Of a stretch of DNA of 42,832 bases, positions 5,372-42,644 are shown piece by piece. This DNA comes from a virus: IMG/VR virus record IMGVR_UViG_3300030390_001047, positions 1 through 42,832 of that record; one strand, written 5' to 3'. The position numbers and the translations under genes were made by a program. Under the pieces are notes generated by a model that worked only from the letters and a program-made list of their open reading frames with translations, was not told where the DNA came from and searched no databases. Position 1 is the stretch's first letter. Each line of letters begins with the position of its first letter.

Positions 5372-7564
5372 TTATTTAATATTCTTAAAACCTGATCTTC
5401 TTATTTTTTTTGAAGAACTGTGTTTTCCACGTCCAATATTTTTAAACGGACTATACTTTAATTTATACAAATTTTCTGAGTTTACCAAAGAATTAGTCTC
5501 TGATTCACGTCTTTTAGAGTATCCTCTGTTAGATTGTTGTATTTTTACAAATGCAATCAAAGAACCAAATGCAACAAGTCTATCCACGTTCAATCCAGGA
5601 TAATAGGCTAACATCTCTTTTAAAAGCATTGGATCTGGTATTCTTTCTACACCCAATGTTTGATTCATAACGTTTCCATCATCATCTAAATCTTCATCAA
5701 TTACTTCTCTTATAAACTCTATTGCATATGATATTAAATGACTCTTAAATAGTGTTCCTGTATTCTTCCAGCCGTACTCTTGATAGACAGTTCTATTAGA
5801 TCCAAGATCTTTTAAAAATAATATTTGTTGTTTTGGAACTAAATATCTTTGCTTTTTTCTAGCAATCATATGTTGAATAAATAATGATATATTATTTTCA
5901 ACTAATGTCCAAGCATTATACCACTCTATTAATAACTCTAATCTTTCATGTGTCTTGTTTATATCATCAAATCTACCACACCAAGCTGCTACAATTTTAT
6001 CTTTTTCAATAAACTGTTCAGTATCTCCTGATTGAGTTGTTCTTGTTACTTCTACAGCATTTTTATAAATAAATATACTACATAATGAATCAGATGTAGT
6101 TGTTTTACCTTCTGATACTGGATCAATAGATCCATAGTAAGCTCCAAAATCAGGTCTTTTACTTGCAGGTCTTTCCCACACTACAATTGTTCCAGTTTTA
6201 TCTGTTTGTTTTTTGTCAACAGGAAATCTGGTTATTGGTAATTTATTTGTACGTTTAGCAATGATGCCTTCTTGTTCTCTTTCTAATTCTATTAATTCAT
6301 AAGGGTATTCTTTTTCATCAACTTTTTTAAGTTGTTTACTCAATACACCTTGTGGAAATATTGAGGCTTTTCTATATGCAAATGCTTCAGCTATATTTAA
6401 AGGTTTCTGAGATATCCTTAATTGAAACTGTTCACCGTTTAATTCATTTTTCCAACGCTCTCTTTCTTTATGAATTGCTTCTACTGCTTCTTCTATTTGA
6501 GAGTTACCATAACTATCTATATATGGTGGCATTGACCATTGTTCAGGTATAAACAAACCTGCTTTTCCAATTGTTCCGTCAGCATCTATTAGATCTGTTT
6601 CAACAGAAAATATATCATTTGCATCAGGGTTCATTATCATTTCCTTCAATGGTTTACATTGATCTAAATCACCCACTGATCCTGCAGCAATAAACATACC
6701 TGTAGTCATCATACCTGAAGACATTGCAGGACGTAAATATTCATATGTTTCTGACATCTTAGAAGCTATACCAGCTTCTTCATGAAAAAAGTATGTACAT
6801 GGTCCACCTACTCCAGTTGTAGCATTTTTCTCAAATGAACCACCTTGTATTTTAGATTTAAGACCTCTTGCAGTTTTTCTATTTCCAATTTTTACTTCTA
6901 TTTGTTGTTGCCAAAGTAATACCTTCTCAGGATTACTTGGTCTATACCAAGCAGTATGTTCATTTAAAAATATTTTGTATTCTTCTAAAAACTTCCATGA
7001 ACCTTTATCATTTATAAAGTCTTTTAATGATGCCCCTATCTTACATGTACTACCTTCTTCAAACCAATAAGTATTAATTAATTTAGCCATGTGAAAGTAA
7101 GAAGAAGCTATCTGACGTTTTTTAAGTATAGCTGAATGTTGATTATTTAGTTCAGCTAGCCATTCATATAATGCCATATGGTATTGTGCATCTCTTACTT
7201 TTGCAAATCCATATTTTTTTTCTTCTTTATCAAATATGGGTAAAAAATTTAGCCACATATAATAGTCTCTTGTTATATACCAAGTCTTGTGTTTATCTTT
7301 ATATATAACTCCATTACGGCATTTGATTTTTTGGTCATCCCAATATGTAGTAAAGTCTTTAGATCTAAAAGGACTACTACAATACAATCCTTCTTCATTA
7401 AATACTTTAGCTTGCTCATTAAATTTAAAAGCCATCTCTGTAAACCCGTATTTACCAGGCTCACTAAAGATGGATTCTAAAAACTCTCTAAATTTTAAGT
7501 CATTTTTAAATTCAGTAGTTGTCCAATTTCCATTGTCATATGTAGGTATAACCCTACTCATCAT
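5372..7564 (-). CDS. terL: Terminase large subunit (packaging ATPase and nuclease)
   Basis: A 730-residue protein. The ATPase half has a degenerate Walker A region (LKKRQIASSYFHMAKLI, about residues 147-163), a Walker B TYFFHEEAG (about 257-265) and a coupling motif MFIAAGSVGD (290-299). The C-terminal RNase H-like nuclease half begins with GAYYGSIDPVSEGKTTTSD (about 475-492), whose Asp is the expected first metal ligand; NVDRLVAFGSLIA near the end supplies the last. TerL pumps DNA through the portal and cuts concatemers. The start overlaps the end of the GroES-like gene by 11 bases. The lack of a classical GxGKT loop is usual in this phage group. No small terminase was recognised; the two unknown genes upstream are candidates. 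Confidence 0.9.
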   Translation of the reverse strand: MMSRVIPTYDNGNWTTTEFKNDLKFREFLESIFSEPGKYGFTEMAFKFNEQAKVFNEEGLYCSSPFRSKDFTTYWDDQKIKCRNGVIYKDKHKTWYITRDYYMWLNFLPIFDKEEKKYGFAKVRDAQYHMALYEWLAELNNQHSAILKKRQIASSYFHMAKLINTYWFEEGSTCKIGASLKDFINDKGSWKFLEEYKIFLNEHTAWYRPSNPEKVLLWQQQIEVKIGNRKTARGLKSKIQGGSFEKNATTGVGGPCTYFFHEEAGIASKMSETYEYLRPAMSSGMMTTGMFIAAGSVGDLDQCKPLKEMIMNPDANDIFSVETDLIDADGTIGKAGLFIPEQWSMPPYIDSYGNSQIEEAVEAIHKERERWKNELNGEQFQLRISQKPLNIAEAFAYRKASIFPQGVLSKQLKKVDEKEYPYELIELEREQEGIIAKRTNKLPITRFPVDKKQTDKTGTIVVWERPASKRPDFGAYYGSIDPVSEGKTTTSDSLCSIFIYKNAVEVTRTTQSGDTEQFIEKDKIVAAWCGRFDDINKTHERLELLIEWYNAWTLVENNISLFIQHMIARKKQRYLVPKQQILFLKDLGSNRTVYQEYGWKNTGTLFKSHLISYAIEFIREVIDEDLDDDGNVMNQTLGVERIPDPMLLKEMLAYYPGLNVDRLVAFGSLIAFVKIQQSNRGYSKRRESETNSLVNSENLYKLKYSPFKNIGRGKHSSSKKIRRSGFKNIK

Positions 7565-13095: not shown

Positions 13096-13289
13096 TATTT
13101 TTTTGTTTTATATCCGCCTCCGTTTGCTTTGTATCTTTTAGCTAACATCTGAGCTTTACGAGCAGACCATTGTCCAGCTCCTCCGCCTTTACTTCCTGCC
13201 TTGATTGAATTAAATAATCTTTTACGCATTCCAGGCTTAGTATAGTTACCAGAACTATTTACTGTACTTTTCTTTTTCTTTGCTGGCAT
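13095..13289 (-). CDS. 64-residue basic Gly/Lys-rich protein
   Basis: Begins MPAKKKKSTVNSSGNYTKPG, then MRKRLFNSIKAGSKGGGAG and QWSARKAQMLAKRYKANGGG. I recall similar sequences in marine phages and in uncultured viral contigs, but no function. The helix SARKAQMLAKRYKA could contact nucleic acid. One-base TAATG junctions occur at both ends. Confidence 0.7.
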   Translation of the reverse strand: MPAKKKKSTVNSSGNYTKPGMRKRLFNSIKAGSKGGGAGQWSARKAQMLAKRYKANGGGYKTKK

Positions 13290-13456
13290 TATTTCTTTGC
13301 TTTAAGTTTAGCTGTTTTAGATAAGTCTTTAAAATGAACTAAAAGTTTACTAGTCTTGGTATGTGTCTTACCAGTGTGTAATTTACCATTAGACATTTTG
13401 TGACTAACACCTTTCCATTCAGTTCCGTTTTTTAAATAATGTTTTACGCCTTTCAT
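13289..13456 (-). CDS. 55-residue basic protein
   Basis: ATG 13456 opens MKGVKHYLKNGTEWKGVSHK, which continues MSNGKLHTGKTHTKTSKLLV and ends DLSKTAKLKAKK. The first part looks like a small beta-sheet. It is lysine-rich like its neighbours and ends with a one-base overlap on the next ATG. Six bases separate it from the 108-residue gene before it. Confidence 0.65.
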   Translation of the reverse strand: MKGVKHYLKNGTEWKGVSHKMSNGKLHTGKTHTKTSKLLVHFKDLSKTAKLKAKK

Positions 13457-13462
13457 TTTTTT

Positions 13463-13789
13463 TTAATTATCGTTATTAATTGTATCTGGATACGTTTCGT
13501 TCATTATACTTTTTATCTTAGCACATCTTTCATACGCTTCAACATCTACATAATGAAATATCATATTCTCTAATTGTTCTTTTGTTGGCCCATCATCTGG
13601 GTCGTATGCCATTACGGCCTCATGACCAATATCAAACTTTGCTGCTATTAGTTCTGTGAATGTAACCTGTCCCGTTAATACTAAATATGAATTATCAAAA
13701 GCAGTGTCTAATAATATCTGATCTAACTGCATTTGTTCCATCTCAGTTAAACCATTTTCTTTATCAGATTCACCATCCCAATGTGACAT
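13463..13789 (-). CDS. Acidic protein, first gene of the minus block (108 residues)
   Basis: Strongly acidic, in contrast with the basic genes that follow: it starts MSHWDGESDKENGLTEMEQM and carries MAYDPDDGPTKEQLENM and YVDVEAYERCAKIKSIM. The C-terminal part, with its spaced Tyr/Glu helix, resembles UVR-like two-helix domains. It is the promoter-proximal gene of the leftward block, so it is probably made early in that transcript. Function unknown. Confidence 0.65.
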   Translation of the reverse strand: MSHWDGESDKENGLTEMEQMQLDQILLDTAFDNSYLVLTGQVTFTELIAAKFDIGHEAVMAYDPDDGPTKEQLENMIFHYVDVEAYERCAKIKSIMNETYPDTINNDN

Positions 13790-14030
13790 ATTACTTATTT
13801 TTTGATTAGTTACAATCCATCTATAAGAACAATATACTAAATTTTAAATTTGCAAAAAAATAAATTTGAACTAACATGCCCCCTAACTGATTAAAAAAAA
13901 TTCAACCCCCCACCCAAAAGTTATGTATTTGGCGTGCTTGAGATGTTCTACCAATTTGCTCCCCAACTAAATTCCGTGGTTGGGTTACCCCCCGTAATAG
14001 TTCCACAAAAATTAATTTAATTCTAATATT
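13790..14030. promoter_or_regulatory. Divergent intergenic region between the two transcription blocks
   Basis: These 241 bases separate leftward and rightward genes, so promoters for both blocks should lie here. Two perfect TAAATTTG boxes (13845-13852, 13861-13868) match the -7 consensus TAnnTTTG on the plus strand, though no -33 TTG lies at the usual distance. The rest holds C-tracts (CCCCC near 13880, CCCCCC and CCC near 13908-13917, CCCC at 13961, CCCCCC near 13988), which are exceptional in this AT-rich DNA. A CCCAAC/GTTGGG hairpin lies at 13962-13984. Confidence 0.5.
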
Positions 14031-14360
14031 ATGGCTTATTTACACAAGATCAACAAGGGTACACGTGCTGACGGCACTACGTACAAAACAATCATTGTTT
14101 CTGACCAACCAGTTGGAGCTACTCCTATCACAATAGGTAGTCAGACAGTCAACATGGGTAATGGTGCTAATGCTCGTTATGGCATATACAGCCCAAAAAC
14201 TGACAATGGTGCACCTATGAATGCGGACAACCCATTCTGGGCAACCTTTGAGCAAGAGCACAAACCCGGAGATGAAATACCGGCTCTTGTTGTTGGTGAT
14301 ACTAACTTCACATTCAGTGACGGAACTATCAGTGACAATCTGTTCTACTGCAAGGCGTAA
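14031..14360 (+). CDS. Unknown protein, first gene of the plus block (109 residues)
   Basis: It starts MAYLHKINKGTRADGTTYKT and has beta-type sequence such as TIIVSDQPVGATPITIG, then FWATFEQEHKPGDEIPALVV and a polar end. Codon use is visibly richer in G and C than the neighbouring genes (for example GGC, GCC, CCC and ACC codons). It has its own strong terminator 11 bases downstream, so it is probably a separately transcribed, highly expressed early gene. An OB-fold-like or single-stranded-DNA-binding role is imaginable from the beta-rich pattern, but no family was recognised. Confidence 0.75.
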   Translation: MAYLHKINKGTRADGTTYKTIIVSDQPVGATPITIGSQTVNMGNGANARYGIYSPKTDNGAPMNADNPFWATFEQEHKPGDEIPALVVGDTNFTFSDGTISDNLFYCKA

Positions 14361-14371
14361 GCTTTGTGGTC

Positions 14372-14398
14372 AAGCCGTGTGTAACAGCACGGCTTTTT
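14372..14398 (+). terminator. Rho-independent terminator
   Basis: A perfect 8-bp stem AAGCCGTG/CACGGCTT with an 8-base loop runs into TTTTT. It lies 11 bases after the stop of the 109-residue gene. Confidence 0.85.
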
Positions 14399-14433
14399 AA
14401 TATTGCAAATAACCACAAACACTATACATTATG
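14399..14433 (+). repeat. Repeated gene leader, copy 1
   Basis: AATATTGCAA, AACCACAAA, ACTA and a terminal ATTATGT occur here and again at 15001-15037 in the same order and nearly the same spacing, in both cases ending at the ATG of a gene. The shared leader suggests a common promoter, operator or translation element. It includes the ACCACAAA octamer discussed under the non-coding region. Confidence 0.6.
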
Positions 14434-14619
14434 TCTGAAATAAGAAATGGAAATATAAATAATGCTAAATCTTTATCTAGTATAGATAAATTGAATTGTG
14501 ATGTTTGTATATATTATACTCAAGGTGAACTTCATTTATATTATGACACTAATGAAGAACAAGTAATACAACTTAATGATTTGCAAAAGAAGAAATTAAT
14601 AGAAGTTCTTAGTAACTAA
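14431..14619 (+). CDS. Unknown 62-residue protein
   Basis: Starts MSEIRNGNINNAKSLSSIDK, then LNCDVCIYYTQGELHLYYDT and ends in a Leu/Lys helix (VIQLNDLQKKKLIEVLSN). It is a probable small alpha/beta protein with a CxxC pair. The start is the last codon of leader repeat copy 1. It is followed by the large non-coding region. Confidence 0.65.
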   Translation: MSEIRNGNINNAKSLSSIDKLNCDVCIYYTQGELHLYYDTNEEQVIQLNDLQKKKLIEVLSN

Positions 14620-14652
14620 TTTAACACAGAGGGATAAACATTAAATTGGATA

Positions 14653-14690
14653 ACACGCTGAGTGTAGTATGCAACTGCACTGGAGCGTGT
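14653..14690 (+). other. Strong bipartite hairpin
   Basis: ACACGCT pairs with AGCGTGT (7 bp). After a small G/GG internal loop, AGTGTAG pairs with CTGCACT (7 bp, one G-T wobble), closing a 7-base loop TATGCAA. No T-tract follows directly, so it is not a standard terminator. It may be an RNA element or an origin hairpin. Confidence 0.7.
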
Positions 14691-14840
14691 GACCTCTTTC
14701 CTGTAAGCGTTACTATACTTTCCCAGCTCTTTGCTCTCTTTCTTTCCCTCCTTTTGCTCCCTAACTATAGTTTGTGGTCATTAGTGCATATAAAAAAGAA
14801 ATTAGTGCACCAATGTGTGTGTCATTGTGAATATGACCTC

Positions 14841-14870
14841 ACATTACCACATATTACCACTCTTTACCAC
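14841..14870 (+). repeat. Three 10-bp tandem iterons (consensus nnWTTACCAC)
   Basis: The three units ACATTACCAC, ATATTACCAC and TCTTTACCAC follow each other without a gap at exact 10-bp period, about one helical turn, so a protein would bind one face of the DNA. AT-rich DNA follows immediately. Confidence 0.7.
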
Positions 14871-15000
14871 ACAATAATAATTATTGCTACTAAAGATATA
14901 AATATAGCTAACAACAATACAAGTGTAGCTATTACACACAACAATACAATAAGAGTAATCTAAGTCTCTTCCTCTATAGGATAAGAGGCATAGTACCCGC

Positions 15001-15037
15001 AATATTGCAATCAACCACAAATACTAATAAATTATGT
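15001..15037 (+). repeat. Repeated gene leader, copy 2
   Basis: Same elements as at 14399-14433: AATATTGCAA, AACCACAAA, ACTA and ATTATGT, ending at ATG 15034. The palindrome GCAATATTGC (14999-15008) covers its left end. Confidence 0.6.
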
Positions 15038-15183
15038 TTGAGTATACACATTATGTTCAAGGACCTGACAATACCAAATGGGGTATTTTCATTAATAGAG
15101 GACAAGCTATGATAATGAAGCTTGCTCTTTCTGAAAGATTCAACTCGGAAGGAAAAGAATTTGAAGTCAAAGAAATAAAATAA
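15034..15183 (+). CDS. Unknown 49-residue protein
   Basis: MFEYTHYVQGPDNTKWGIFI then a basic helix and EGKEFEVKEIK. The pattern of short strands around WGIFINRG is like a small beta-sheet protein. It starts at the end of leader repeat copy 2 and is followed after three bases by the next small gene. No family recognised. Confidence 0.6.
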   Translation: MFEYTHYVQGPDNTKWGIFINRGQAMIMKLALSERFNSEGKEFEVKEIK

Positions 15184-15186
15184 GTT

Positions 15187-15309
15187 ATGTTCTTTGAAGA
15201 TGCAAGAGATGCTTGGGAGATGTTTAGAATATCTCCTGAGCTAACATGCACTTGTGATGAGGTTCATACTTGTCAGCAGTGTTATGAAGAATCAAAAAAA
15301 GAAAATTAA
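15187..15309 (+). CDS. 40-residue cysteine-containing peptide
   Basis: MFFEDARDAWEMFRISPELT followed by CTCDEVHTCQQCYEESKKEN, with four cysteines arranged as CxC...CxxC, likely to bind one zinc ion. It is acidic overall. Its position in a run of closely spaced small genes supports it as real. Confidence 0.55.
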   Translation: MFFEDARDAWEMFRISPELTCTCDEVHTCQQCYEESKKEN

Positions 15310-16140: not shown

Positions 16141-16383
16141 ATGCACGAAGATGACTTTTACAGATTAATTAGATTTTTAGCAGAAGAAACAGCACATCAT
16201 AGATTTGGTGAAGATGGTGTTAACTTCAACATACACACAGGTGAATGTGAATTCACAGAAGAATCAGAAAGGTTTATACATAATGAGATGTCAGTATTAG
16301 AAATGACATTTAATATATATGGCTTAAGACCAAAAGAAAGTTGGCTTAATAAGATAAAAAGACTATTAGGTATAATAGACTAA
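16141..16383 (+). CDS. Unknown 80-residue protein
   Basis: Starts MHEDDFYRLIRFLAEETAHH. The next part, GVNFNIHTGECEFTEESERF, is acidic, and the end SWLNKIKRLLGIID is an amphipathic helix. I chose ATG 16141 because upstream in-frame starts (TTG 16105, ATG 16111) lie inside the previous gene. Function unknown. Confidence 0.6.
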   Translation: MHEDDFYRLIRFLAEETAHHRFGEDGVNFNIHTGECEFTEESERFIHNEMSVLEMTFNIYGLRPKESWLNKIKRLLGIID

Positions 16384-16515
16384 CAACACCAGTAATATTA
16401 TATATATAATAACACTAGTAGTTAGGCTAAGAATATGGTTGAGTGGTTAACCTGATATGACACTTGTAGTTTAATGAGTAATACTATGAGTGTCCTCTAT
16501 CTTAAAGAATAACAT
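16384..16515 (+). other. Non-coding stretch with palindrome and hairpins
   Basis: These 132 bases contain a perfect 16-bp palindrome TATTATATATATAATA (16396-16411). A small GGTT/AACC hairpin follows at 16437-16452. A 12-bp hairpin GACACTTGTAGT/ACTATGAGTGTC (16459-16494, two G-T wobbles) closes a 12-base loop. No gene fits. It may be a structured leader of the next gene or a small RNA. Confidence 0.45.
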
Positions 16516-16650
16516 ATGACAAAAGAATTCAACGAATGGATGGCCAGTATAGGTAATATATACTATGCCAATGATAAACTAATGGACCAAGCGTTCCAAA
16601 AAATAGAAAAAGAAAAAAATAAAAGAAATAAAATATGTCAAACAAACTAA
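16516..16650 (+). CDS. Unknown 44-residue peptide
   Basis: MTKEFNEWMASIGNIYYAND, then a lysine-rich helix (QKIEKEKNKRNK) ending CQTN. It overlaps the following gene by 16 bases, a larger overlap than most here. Its A-rich leader AAAGAATAACAT fits Bacteroidota starts. Function unknown. Confidence 0.5.
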   Translation: MTKEFNEWMASIGNIYYANDKLMDQAFQKIEKEKNKRNKICQTN

Positions 16651-17126: not shown

Positions 17127-17307
17127 GTTACCCAGAGATATAATAACTCAAGAGTATAGGTTACATACCTATGAAAAGAAAGGAACCTTTGGATCTCGTA
17201 TGAATAGTACTTATAATCTTAAAGATGATACACTATCTGATGAGTTAGATGATAACATGTCGTTATTGATATTACTTAAATATCATTTACATGATGGGGA
17301 CAGATAG
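17119..17307 (+). CDS. Unknown 62-residue protein
   Basis: MPKLPRDIITQEYRLHTYEK then KGTFGSRMNSTYNLKDDTLS and a leucine-rich acidic end. It overlaps the previous gene by 8 bases and the wHTH gene by 17 bases. No recognised motif. Confidence 0.55.
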   Translation: MPKLPRDIITQEYRLHTYEKKGTFGSRMNSTYNLKDDTLSDELDDNMSLLILLKYHLHDGDR

Positions 17308-17539
17308 ATTTGGTATAGTAATGAACCAAGTCTTGTCTGACCCAAGCCTTACTATACAAGCTAAAGGATTATATGCTTTATTATCCTGTTATGCAGATAA
17401 AGATAGAAAATGTTTTCCGTCAATATCTACATTAGCTGATCAACTAGATGTATCATGTGATACTGTTAGTAGATATATAAGAGAGTTAAAGCAACACAAT
17501 TACATTAAAAGAGTCGGTAGAAAGCTAATAATAACATAA
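17291..17539 (+). CDS. Winged helix-turn-helix DNA-binding protein (82 residues)
   Basis: The protein is a bare HTH domain: IQAKGLYALLSCYADKDRKC is a helix pair, FPSISTLADQLDVSCDTVSR holds the HTH core, and YIRELKQHNYIKRVGRKLII is the recognition helix followed by a wing. This layout is common in replication initiators and phage transcriptional regulators of the GntR/DnaD-like class. Small size and position in the early region point to a regulator or an origin-binding protein acting on the iterons at 14.8 kb (inference). Two Bacteroidota -7 boxes follow its stop. Confidence 0.75.
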   Translation: MMGTDRFGIVMNQVLSDPSLTIQAKGLYALLSCYADKDRKCFPSISTLADQLDVSCDTVSRYIRELKQHNYIKRVGRKLIIT

Positions 17540-39200: not shown

Positions 39201-42200
39201 TTATTTGTACATGGTAATTGCTATTGTATAATTTAAGCTTGATCCATTTATAATAACTGCATCTTTATCAATTACATCTAATAGAAATTGGGTTGTGCTA
39301 GCTCCTCTTGTTCTACATTGAAGCATTTTTACACCTGCATTATCAAAAACACTTGCTTGAATTAAATAATTTGCATTGCTTCTTGTTGCATTTAATGTTA
39401 TTGTATAAAGACCTGTTCCTGAATTATATGCCACAAGATTGTTTCCTGCAAAAACAGATTGTCCTTGATTAACAATACCAGAACTATCAAAAGAGAAATA
39501 ATCAGTTGGTCCTGGATCAGATATAACTAAGTGTTTAACTTGAGTATATTTAACAGTATTATTATCATCTACATCTTGATATATTATTAAATCAGCACCG
39601 TCAGGAATAGCCCCAGATGCATTTGTTGCTGATTGAATAATAGAATCCGTTCCTATATAGTCAACTGCAATCTCATCTGCACTAGTTAATAATCCTGCTC
39701 CGCCTGTAACATTTAAAGTTATTGCTCCAGTTGGTCCACCTACTGATGAACAACCTGTTCCTGCAGTTAAGCTTGTTACTACTGGTAATGCACTAATAGC
39801 AGTTTTTTTAACAGAATTACCATCACTAGCATCATTAAACAACATAATATCAGTTGCATCTGCTGTACCTGCTCCTGGAACTAACATTATATTAGATCCT
39901 CCAGTATAATTTACTCCTATTGTAGGATTAACTGTGGTTGATCCTGCTTCTAATTCTAAACCTTCTCCTGGTGTAACAGATGTAACTGTACCAACTGTTG
40001 GTGCTGTACCTTGTACAATAGCTGTTATGTGTCCTGAACCATTAAATGTTATAGATGATGGATTTGTTACAGTAGCTGCTGTAATAGAATCAGTGTGATT
40101 TATTGTTAAAGTATCTGTTGCTGATACAGCAGTTGTTAAACCTGTACCACCAGCAAAAAGAACCGTGTTTAAATTTAAAATATCTTGAGCACTACCACCA
40201 TCACCATTTAATGTCCATTTCTGATAGTAACCTGGTAAATTATTTATAGTTGCTTTTTTAACTGTATTATCTGAAATATCACTGAACATGATATAATCAG
40301 TTGGACTTAGATTTACTTCGGTTGTTCTAACGTTTATTATATTATCAGTACCTACCGTATCTATAGAAAGAGTAACTGTATCTGTTGCACTTACTACACT
40401 AGTAATTCCTCCTGATCCTGCCCCAGATCCTGCTAATACACTTAATGTATTACCTAAATTAATAGTTTGTTGTGTTGTTCCATCAGTAAGAGTAAAGCTA
40501 CCTTGATTTAGAAGTTTTGCTACCGTATCTTTCTTTATGTTTCCACTATCACTAGTATCACTATACCATATAAAGTCTGGACCTGCAACGTCTGCAGATG
40601 GTGCTTCTAATATAGCATTGTCTGAACCTAAATAATCAATTCCAACAATAGGACTGCTTGCAGTACCTGTTACTGTAATACCTAATCCTTCGTTTACAGT
40701 AGTACTACCACCTCCACCAGCTGGAACTTGCCATGTGCCATCTGCTCTTAAGAAAGCAGTTGATTGATTTGATCCTGATGAAGAAGGAACATATCCTACT
40801 AAGTTATTACCTCCAAATTTATTGGAGTTTATTGTAAGTGTTGTTCCTGAAACACTTCCTGTTAAAGGAACAGTTGCTCCTGTTATTAATGCAAAAGCTA
40901 CAGCAGTAACTCCCGTTGAAGGTGTTATCCATTGTCCATCGCCTCTATAAAAAGTTGTAGCACTTGGAGTACCTCCAGCATTTACAAGAGCTATTGTCAT
41001 ATCACCAGCACTTACTGCTGAGTCAGTTGCTATACCTGCTCCTCCTGAAGTAACAAGTCCTGCAAATTTTAAAGTCGTTCCTGAAGTTACATTTATGTCT
41101 GTACCCTGATCAGAATCTGCTGTCCATGATGTATACTGATCAAAAGGTAAAGCAGATATTGCTGCTTTTCTTACAGTATTACTATCACTGATATCTGAAA
41201 ATACAATAATATCAGATGCTACTGGTGTTGCAGCGTTCCAAACTTGTACAAAGTTATCTGTTCCTACAGTATCTAAATTAAATGTTAATGTATTAGGATT
41301 AGCACTTACTGCAGCTGCATCTAATCCAGGACCTCCAATAAAGTTTATTGTTTCACCGTTACTTATATTGACTGATGAACCGCCATCTCCTTGAATATTA
41401 AAAGATGACATGCTTCCACCACCACTAGCTGGAAGAGTTACTGTTTTAACATTTAAAGCAGTAGGATGTCCTGTAGCATCTTGTGTTACACTATCTATTA
41501 CTGTGAATGTAGCTCCTGCTGCAGGGGATACTGCAGAGGTTGTATCAGTTCTTGTAGTATTAAGATGACTAAATGTTATTTTCTCTGGGTTACCTCCTGC
41601 TACAGTTAGTGTAGTTGCTATTTTTGCACCTCCTAGAAATTGAACTACTTCTCCATCAGTTACTGTACCTGTTATGGTGCCATCATTAAGTTTCCAAGTA
41701 TAAGAACTACCATTAGCTCCCCAAAGGACTTGACTGCTACCATCAGATATTAATACCTGACCAGCTGTTCCAAGATTCCCTCCTGCATCTTTTACAGGAC
41801 CATTAATATATAATATAGCGTCTGTTATTACAGTTTGGGTATCTGCAGTACCTATTGTTAATACGCCTGCTCCCCCTGGAGTTTGTATCATAGGGACAAT
41901 AGATCCATTACCTATTGTATTAGTTCCAGTCCACATTGTCATATGATTTGCAGTACCAGTTCCTGTTACCACATTTTGTGAAGCAAGTGTTTGATAAGAT
42001 ATAGTTGTACCATTACTTACTAATATAGTACCTGCTGCTCCTATACATAGTTGAGATTGCAAGTTTGAAGCATCACCAACCCAAATACAACCTTGATTTA
42101 AAGTTACTACTGGATCATCGTTAGACCACACAACTCTACCATCTGCTAAAGATCTTAATATTCTATTAGCTCCACCTGCTTCTGCACCGGCAGAATCAAG

Positions 42201-42644
42201 AACTCTGTTAAGTAGTGATGTACCATTTACAACATCTCCTGCTGTACCTAATACAACTTTTGTTTTTAATACAGCATCCTGTTCAACAATTAAACCACCA
42301 TTAATATTAATTGAAGTAAGACCAGCAGCAGTAGATTGGCTTGCAATACTATCTTCTATAGAAGTATTCTGAGTTACACATGATCCTGATACCGGGGCAT
42401 ACATAGGAAGAGTCTTTACTGTAGCTGTACCATTTTGTAGAACAACATCAGTGAGTATATCACATTTAAGATCACCAAACTTGATAACAAAAGGCTCCAT
42501 CTTAGGTGCATAACTTGTCCCAGTATTAAGAGTACCGGAAGAGTATAGTCTACCAAACTCAAAATGATCCTTTTGACCATCTAACTTTAATTTCTTTTTA
42601 TTTCTGTTTAATAGTCCTAAGACTTCTTGTATATAAACACTCAT
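39201..42644 (-). CDS. Large repetitive tail-fibre/receptor-binding-like protein
   Basis: A 1147-residue, Gly/Ser/Thr/Asn-rich, beta-type protein without hydrophobic helices. A short block of type D-[IF]-I-x-[FY]-x-D-x-[SD]-D-x-x-x-[VI]-[KR]-K/Y occurs about five times (near residues 478-500, 690-712, 783-804, 932-954 and 1018-1039), spaced 90-210 residues apart. In between are stretches like GTLTITGTVTDGEVVQFLGG-type beta helices. The C-terminus (FLLDVIDKDAVIINGSSLNY) resembles the fibre-tip domain of Bacteroidota phages. It would bind the host surface. The repeats suggest duplication, with possible variation in host range. The fibre role is inferred. Confidence 0.72.
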   Translation of the reverse strand: MSVYIQEVLGLLNRNKKKLKLDGQKDHFEFGRLYSSGTLNTGTSYAPKMEPFVIKFGDLKCDILTDVVLQNGTATVKTLPMYAPVSGSCVTQNTSIEDSIASQSTAAGLTSININGGLIVEQDAVLKTKVVLGTAGDVVNGTSLLNRVLDSAGAEAGGANRILRSLADGRVVWSNDDPVVTLNQGCIWVGDASNLQSQLCIGAAGTILVSNGTTISYQTLASQNVVTGTGTANHMTMWTGTNTIGNGSIVPMIQTPGGAGVLTIGTADTQTVITDAILYINGPVKDAGGNLGTAGQVLISDGSSQVLWGANGSSYTWKLNDGTITGTVTDGEVVQFLGGAKIATTLTVAGGNPEKITFSHLNTTRTDTTSAVSPAAGATFTVIDSVTQDATGHPTALNVKTVTLPASGGGSMSSFNIQGDGGSSVNISNGETINFIGGPGLDAAAVSANPNTLTFNLDTVGTDNFVQVWNAATPVASDIIVFSDISDSNTVRKAAISALPFDQYTSWTADSDQGTDINVTSGTTLKFAGLVTSGGAGIATDSAVSAGDMTIALVNAGGTPSATTFYRGDGQWITPSTGVTAVAFALITGATVPLTGSVSGTTLTINSNKFGGNNLVGYVPSSSGSNQSTAFLRADGTWQVPAGGGGSTTVNEGLGITVTGTASSPIVGIDYLGSDNAILEAPSADVAGPDFIWYSDTSDSGNIKKDTVAKLLNQGSFTLTDGTTQQTINLGNTLSVLAGSGAGSGGITSVVSATDTVTLSIDTVGTDNIINVRTTEVNLSPTDYIMFSDISDNTVKKATINNLPGYYQKWTLNGDGGSAQDILNLNTVLFAGGTGLTTAVSATDTLTINHTDSITAATVTNPSSITFNGSGHITAIVQGTAPTVGTVTSVTPGEGLELEAGSTTVNPTIGVNYTGGSNIMLVPGAGTADATDIMLFNDASDGNSVKKTAISALPVVTSLTAGTGCSSVGGPTGAITLNVTGGAGLLTSADEIAVDYIGTDSIIQSATNASGAIPDGADLIIYQDVDDNNTVKYTQVKHLVISDPGPTDYFSFDSSGIVNQGQSVFAGNNLVAYNSGTGLYTITLNATRSNANYLIQASVFDNAGVKMLQCRTRGASTTQFLLDVIDKDAVIINGSSLNYTIAITMYK

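Follow-up and report, generated by a model that had tools for sequence, protein, structure and literature searches.

The window analyzed here (i.e., the whole stretch of DNA, 42,832 bases, which is the complete IMG/VR record IMGVR_UViG_3300030390_001047) carries late genes on the − strand up to position 13789, early and replication genes on the + strand at 14031–38774, and − strand genes again beyond, the opposed early/replication and late/structural blocks of a Crassvirales layout. The early block encodes a DnaB-like helicase, a primase, and a DNA polymerase, and the terminase gene (5372–7564) sits in the late block, far from the element at 14812–15008 studied here. Because of its portal (matching phrog_6547, 1.4e-89), terminase (TerL, matching phrog_6681, 5.3e-61), and DNA polymerase (33% identity to Cellulophaga phage phi14:2) genes, the first two being Crassvirales hallmarks, we placed the window among the crAss-like phages. 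It is a fragment of an uncultured crAss-like phage (Crassvirales), probably from a marine habitat, and is far from any named member; the phage records that its TerL matched (134) were mostly crAss-like, Flavobacterium, and Cellulophaga phages, and identity was highest, at about 27%, to gut crAss-like records. A 1147-aa open reading frame (ORF) near the window edge (39201–42644), a candidate position for a giant virion RNA polymerase, had no Pfam or PHROG match, and no tRNA or tmRNA was found in the window.

An initial annotation had singled out the stretch at 14620–15033 as a candidate replication origin or regulatory center and held that no other gap in the window came close. With 14620–15060 as the query, 42 of 87 loci of relatives matched (28 distinct; many contigs end before the site), and a conservation profile was drawn from 25 relatives picked among those with matches. 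A wider set came from the CTATAGG string of the second hairpin described below, found in at least 119 stretches of the viral collection; 164 CTATAGG matches yielded 87 distinct rows when 200 nt upstream and 80 nt downstream were required. The features listed in the initial annotation are present, but their conservation is partial and the statement about other gaps fails, since the divergent late/early intergenic region (13790–14030) is as conserved as the studied element (25/25 chosen relatives) and the gap at 16384–16634 is also structured. The former contains C-runs and one TTTGCTCCC copy (13955), and qualifies as a candidate for a bidirectional promoter or for an origin no less than the studied element does. 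A TGTGTGT-N13/14-GAGGT motif seemingly common to this gap and the studied region had raised the idea of a duplicated promoter, which was dropped when a PWM of the 38-nt core of 13790–14030 found no second site in the window or in four near-complete relatives (G001–G004). Further upstream, the sequence at 13275–13468 is 83–93% identical in relatives, and its order relative to its neighbor differs in several of them (e.g., L002, L023, and L024), as if it were mobile.

The first early gene (14031–14360, + strand) encodes a 109-aa protein whose predicted structure weakly resembles OB-fold/SSB proteins, and is conserved, with 55 of 76 rows falling in one cluster. The AlphaFold2 model is confident (pLDDT 86) and was best re-aligned in the PDB with SSB, PriB, and mtSSB, all weakly (Z ≤4.3; for the best, rmsd 3.7 with 69 residues aligned); there was no Foldseek match in the PDB at E ≤ 0.001 and no Pfam or PHROG match, and one viral structural match was to a protein of unknown function (E 5e-4). 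The terminator scan placed an intrinsic terminator-like hairpin behind this gene (14372–14395, + strand), as behind its homologs in 36 of 76 rows, window included. It is followed by a 62-aa ORF (14431–14619, + strand), apparently a lineage-specific insertion, whose leader resembles 15001–15026 (a 26-nt repeat with 88% identity), and then by the bipartite hairpin (14653–14690, + strand) that headed the initial annotation; positions 14400–14699 were aligned in 0/25 chosen relatives. This hairpin is present and stable at −20.3 kcal/mol by folding, a value reached by two of 14,265 38-nt windows on the + strand, itself included, and by none on the − strand (sampled every 3 nt). It is not conserved, and relatives carry a terminator-like hairpin in its place. 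Because the window's own terminator sits upstream, followed by an ORF unaligned in relatives, we infer that the bipartite hairpin is part of the insertion. Further very stable short + strand hairpins occur at 15205 and 18529.

Conserved block and direct repeats

Conservation in the profile was concentrated in a block with sharp edges at about 14812–15008, with 91 to 100% of positions aligned per 50-nt bin across 14850–14999, and the DNA flanking it was hardly alignable among relatives. The block contains TACCAC repeats, the element TATAAATATAGCTAAC, and the string CTCTATAGGATAA.AG.CATAGTACCCG. One strong match to it was found in each of the 12 records searched whole (12/12), and the CTATAGG element of hairpin 2 occurs once each in G001–G004 and the window; the element is thus single-copy in the genomes examined. 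It sits 3′ of the OB-fold-like early gene and 5′ of varying genes, the position of the first downstream ORF (49 aa in the window; 15034–15183, + strand) being occupied by members of 29 protein clusters in 79 rows. The phage collection held no match to the block at E 1e-5, with only short matches at E about 4, and no named phage carrying it was found there. Among bacterial and archaeal genome contigs, the sole CTATAGG-pattern match was L285 (WLWP01000004.1; 114,697 bases), a phage-sized contig that was assigned to a Pseudomonadales MAG and is perhaps a mis-binned phage.

Upstream of the block, the pyrimidine tract reported initially is present at about 14694–14762 and holds two copies of TTTGCTCYC, a motif found three times in the window, all nearby (13955, 14730, and 14753), a count that 0/100 shuffles reached. 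Pyrimidine-rich direct repeats ending TTTGCTCTC / TTTGCTCCC, 23–24 bp apart (14718–14768, + strand), form a candidate promoter/operator. The ATTAGTGCA pair (14780–14788 and 14801–14809) is there with its 21-bp spacing as described, and is outside the conserved block or variable in relatives. Inside the block, TACCAC recurs at 14845, 14855, and 14865, so that the repeats (14845–14870) are spaced one helical turn apart. The 10-bp repeats reported initially could be corroborated by Tandem Repeats Finder (14836–14873, + strand; period 10, 3.8 copies) and by comparison with shuffles, with TACCACNNNNTACCAC at up to one mismatch occurring twice in the window vs 0.12 times expected (2/100 shuffles had two or more). 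Such tandem direct repeats, a feature of iteron-type origins, kept to the strict pattern in 46 of the 87 distinct rows, 37 of which had it starting 127–129 nt before the CTATAGG of hairpin 2; the strict pattern was missing from the other 41 rows, many of which keep ACCAC-like repeats by eye. The 10-bp repeats, put forward initially for a conservation check, were conserved; the bipartite hairpin and the ATTAGTGCA pair were not.

Downstream of the repeats lies the AT-rich element TATAAATATAGCTAAC (14897–14912, + strand), conserved in relatives; ATATAGCTA is invariant in 30 aligned rows and has one exact copy in the window. The 12-bp direct repeat ACAACAATACAA reported initially is exact (14911 and 14938). 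The AT-rich DNA is likewise present, but modest and unremarkable, the best 80-bp window within 14870–14950 having 77.5% AT, a value that 6.6% of windows reach.

Hairpin folding and variation in relatives

Two features of the block had been overlooked in the initial annotation, i.e., hairpin 2 (14953–14998, + strand), with its near-invariant loop CTATAGGAT (CTATAGGATAA), and the RNA folding of the block in relatives. Both strands of the region from TAGCTA to the end of hairpin 2 (about 68–212 nt) were folded in 86 of the 87 rows and compared with dinucleotide-preserving shuffles. The mean fold z was −2.77 for the + strand vs −1.23 for the − strand, and the + strand was better in 76/86 rows; raw MFE was lower on the + strand in just 41/86 rows, and thus the strand signal rests on the normalization. 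In the folding proposed as a check, the headline hairpin is stable and unconserved, and the conserved fold appears to be a sense RNA within 14812–15008.

Hairpin 1 (14904–14932, + strand) is reduced in the window's lineage (ATAGCTA/TAGCTAT), and is longer in relatives, where its arms covary. In a distant group (n = 17), the duplex of a row's own arms averaged −15.8 kcal/mol vs −9.8 kcal/mol for arms exchanged between phages, with 0/5000 permutations as good, and a second group with longer hairpins gave p 0.002 in the arm-swap permutation (n = 20); in the window's own group the effect was small (−5.03 own vs −4.44 swapped; p 0.003, n = 50). At fixed register, 152 of 180 pairs were canonical vs a permuted mean of 132 (p about 2e-4) in 15 rows whose 3′ arm was placed by hand. 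L193, L176, and L213 were omitted because they lack a clear arm in this register, and L220 because it shares its hairpin with L166. These permutation p-values are optimistic because the rows share ancestry. Position 7 was seen as CG, GC, TA, AT, and TG, and hairpin 1 cells held 12 G-T against 4 A-C, an excess expected of sense RNA and thus suggestive of RNA. In these alignments the arms of hairpin 1 are hypervariable yet covary; the hairpin forms well in distant relatives, but is weak in the group to which the window belongs. Hairpin 2 is mostly without changes, and those found are one-sided or mismatched, so its support comes from sequence conservation and not covariation; RNAalifold on 47 equal-length rows gave 3 pairs only. 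A covarying helix and strand-specific folding, as expected of a structured RNA, are thus found in relatives, with weak signal in the window's group.

A further module, lying around ATGAGTCAAGCAATACCAC, was found in 10 of the 87 rows, either in the hairpin 1 apex (L145, L174, L180, L216, and L227) or downstream of hairpin 2 (L114, L126, L132, L139, and L159), and is absent from the window. It occurs in 41 stretches of the viral collection, and 11 of the 24 distinct stretches examined lie within 1.5 kb of a hairpin 2. Its closing stems differ yet are complementary by eye in 18 instances (one cut at a contig end), e.g., CTTAGAG/CTCTAAG, ACTAGAG/CTCTAGT, ATTAGAG/CTCTAAT, and CAATAGAG/CTTTATTG. By its sequence, the module looks compact and RNA-like, with a closing stem that seems to covary, and it is apparently placed at different positions. 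Elsewhere in the window, a second structured element was observed at 16376–16512, upstream of the gene at 16635, with hairpins CTAAC../..GTTAG and GATA.GACACT../..AGTGTC..TATC. In blastn, 17 of the 25 chosen relatives had this element, with arms of the second hairpin that vary and are complementary by eye, and it had a fold z of −2.13 and no relevant Rfam match.

Rfam 15 gave no gathering-score match in the window, and nothing relevant for 14380–15060 at E up to 10 or in 18 relative loci at E up to 1. No description of such an RNA was found in the full-text literature searched, a body mostly without subscription papers and preprints, and the zeta crAss-like phage paper (PMC12386605) held no mention of the terms sought. 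A stand-alone RNA ending in a terminator was rejected: the terminator scan accepted none in the 24 rows that leave 100 nt or more from hairpin 2 to the first ORF (in L200, a hairpin whose T-run is distant did not pass it), and the RNA thus appears to continue into the mRNA. A TROVE/Y-RNA partner was also considered and set aside, with no TROVE match among the 20 window proteins scanned against Pfam; crAss001 carries an early TROVE gene according to two papers (PMC8375218, PMC10136315).

Regulatory, replicative, and other readings of the block

The order of repeats, fixed AT-rich element, block folding as sense RNA, and early genes is conserved and, in the genomes examined, single-copy. With slightly better than even confidence, we read 14812–15008 as the operator/promoter and structured 5′ leader of a second early transcription unit in this crAss-like phage. 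A multi-site operator or regulatory center had been offered initially next to the origin, and this part of the proposal is supported, since conservation extends over the 10-bp repeats, the distance from them to the element downstream, and the block as a whole. Mechanistically, a phage DNA-binding protein, perhaps the wHTH protein encoded at 17291–17539 (+ strand), would bind the 10-bp repeats as a side-by-side oligomer and control a promoter adjoining the AT-rich element; the transcript would start near TATAAATATAGCTAAC and carry the two hairpins at its 5′ end. The terminator-like hairpin behind the upstream gene suggests that the block would need its own promoter, and a sigma-70 scan was at background (12 found vs 9.6 expected). 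An RNA that stays the same in front of varying downstream genes probably acts on the entire early transcript and not as a one-gene switch, and it may do so through RNase III-like cleavage of the variable helix, through transcript stability, or through antitermination via the conserved loop.

The cumulative GC-skew minimum in the window falls near 14.5 kb, where gene orientation flips. In G001–G004, the main + skew sector is confined to the early block of roughly 25 kb, and − strand genes had GC3 skew values that were alike to the left and right of the element (0.25/0.26, 0.25/0.23, 0.26/0.20, and 0.28/0.25, with overlapping intervals), a comparison made on the assumption that the map is circular and that the terminus lies opposite the element. 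A small island of + strand genes in the late block had weaker skew (−0.02 to 0.10 over 3–4 genes). Coding strand is a sufficient explanation of skew in these four near-complete relatives, and because skew follows it there, the skew that had been proposed as a check lends the origin no support; the inflection is explained by gene orientation, and the minimum was dropped as evidence for an origin. The finding also calls for caution more generally, as GC-skew inversion tracks gene orientation in these relatives, whereas a review (PMC10136315) reads the inversion in crAss-like phages as likely separating replichores; the same review describes Crassvirales replication as proceeding by an unknown mechanism.

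The block as a replication origin is a tentative and rather unlikely alternative, in which the O/DnaD-like wHTH protein would bind the 10-bp repeats, melt the AT-rich element, and load the DnaB-like helicase, and the origin may be activated or primed as the structured RNA is transcribed. It stays alive because the wHTH protein matches DNA-binding domains of the replication-initiator O and DnaD type; about three quarters of the 25 chosen relatives had aligned DNA over its gene, and a partnership with the repeats, as suggested initially, is plausible from the sequence. The repeats could equally be initiator sites, given their helical-turn spacing beside an AT-rich element and near-fixed distance to hairpin 2, and the single copy per genome, the early-block genes for a DnaB-like helicase, a primase, and a DNA polymerase, and the adjoining OB-fold/SSB-like gene would also suit an origin. 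However, the skew inflection has its explanation in the coding strand, the AT-richness is ordinary, the divergent gap at 13790–14030 is an equally good candidate, and an origin does not need the sense-RNA signal. Moreover, classical iterons have a spacing of roughly 20 bp, and the 10-bp spacing here is below that. A combined version appears improbable to us, i.e., an RNA-assisted origin in which a new class of phage RNA would be joined to an iteron-like array, the wHTH protein would bind the repeats, the AT element would open, and the transcript would serve as regulator or primer, with a hairpin apex that takes interchangeable modules, one of them at least about 70 nt long and present at other places in related phages as well.

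A DNA-level site for packaging, resolution, or recombination, with the hairpins as cruciforms, would fit the single copy, the covarying arms of hairpin 1, and the palindromic motifs TAGCTA and CTATAG, but we judge it very improbable, as one strand folds better after normalization in most rows, the excess of G-T over A-C suggests RNA, and the element keeps its place on the early-gene side, well away from the terminase. Hardly credible is a small or decaying protein-coding gene. A TTG frame of 105 aa (14646–14963) is open in the window, and variation shows some third-position excess (p 0.06, not significant), but relatives share no start, their frames stop at differing places and are shifted by indels, the frame meets a stop ahead of the shared one in 15 of 47 equal-length rows, and conservation continues past the stop. 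The initial view that the stretch lacks a credible gene is thereby upheld, and a T/N-rich peptide, as several rows read, was rejected on the same starts, stops, and indels. A diversity-generating template, an idea prompted by that peptide reading, was also dropped. The block lacks a convincing second copy in the window, and across whole relatives a significant second match lay at just one other place, a 50-nt stretch in G002 that is part of an open frame by eye. Read as an operator/promoter with a structured leader, the block provides a cis element that is conserved, single-copy, and open to testing, located where the second early operon begins in a large uncultured group, together with a structured RNA without an Rfam match.

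Comparison with known systems

Lytic phages carry leader RNAs and processing hairpins in their early regions, e.g., the T7 RNase III sites and HK022 put. The window element is similar in that a putative structured sense RNA would occupy an untranslated portion of an early transcript, but its hairpin 1 is hypervariable with added modules, and 10-bp repeats precede it. With iteron-type origins that use O- or DnaD-like initiators it shares direct repeats by an AT-rich element and an initiator-like wHTH protein 2.3 kb downstream, and it differs from them in its 10-bp period, strong sense-RNA signal, and lack of independent skew support.

A shared layout is seen in phi14:2 (NC_021806), which has the same gene-block arrangement and an early noncoding region that encodes an RNA, a tmRNA by ARAGORN prediction (L283 4031–4500). 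Unlike this layout, the DNA is not similar, and none of the short matches at E about 4 was to phi14:2. The early genes of phi14:2 are reportedly transcribed by its virion RNA polymerase, as stated in two papers (PMC10136315, PMC8375218). The RNA-based origins of mycobacterial prophages (PMC7157519) would be an analogue if the window RNA takes part in replication initiation; those phages are different, and such a role would be by analogy. As for the large ornate phage RNAs GOLLD and ROOL (PMC12286853), which are 600–800 nt long, the element differs in being about 68–212 nt, without an Rfam match, and with no intrinsic terminator found after it. It resembles them as a putative structured phage RNA of unknown function, and in GOLLD the 3′ part is conserved and the 5′ part is variable.
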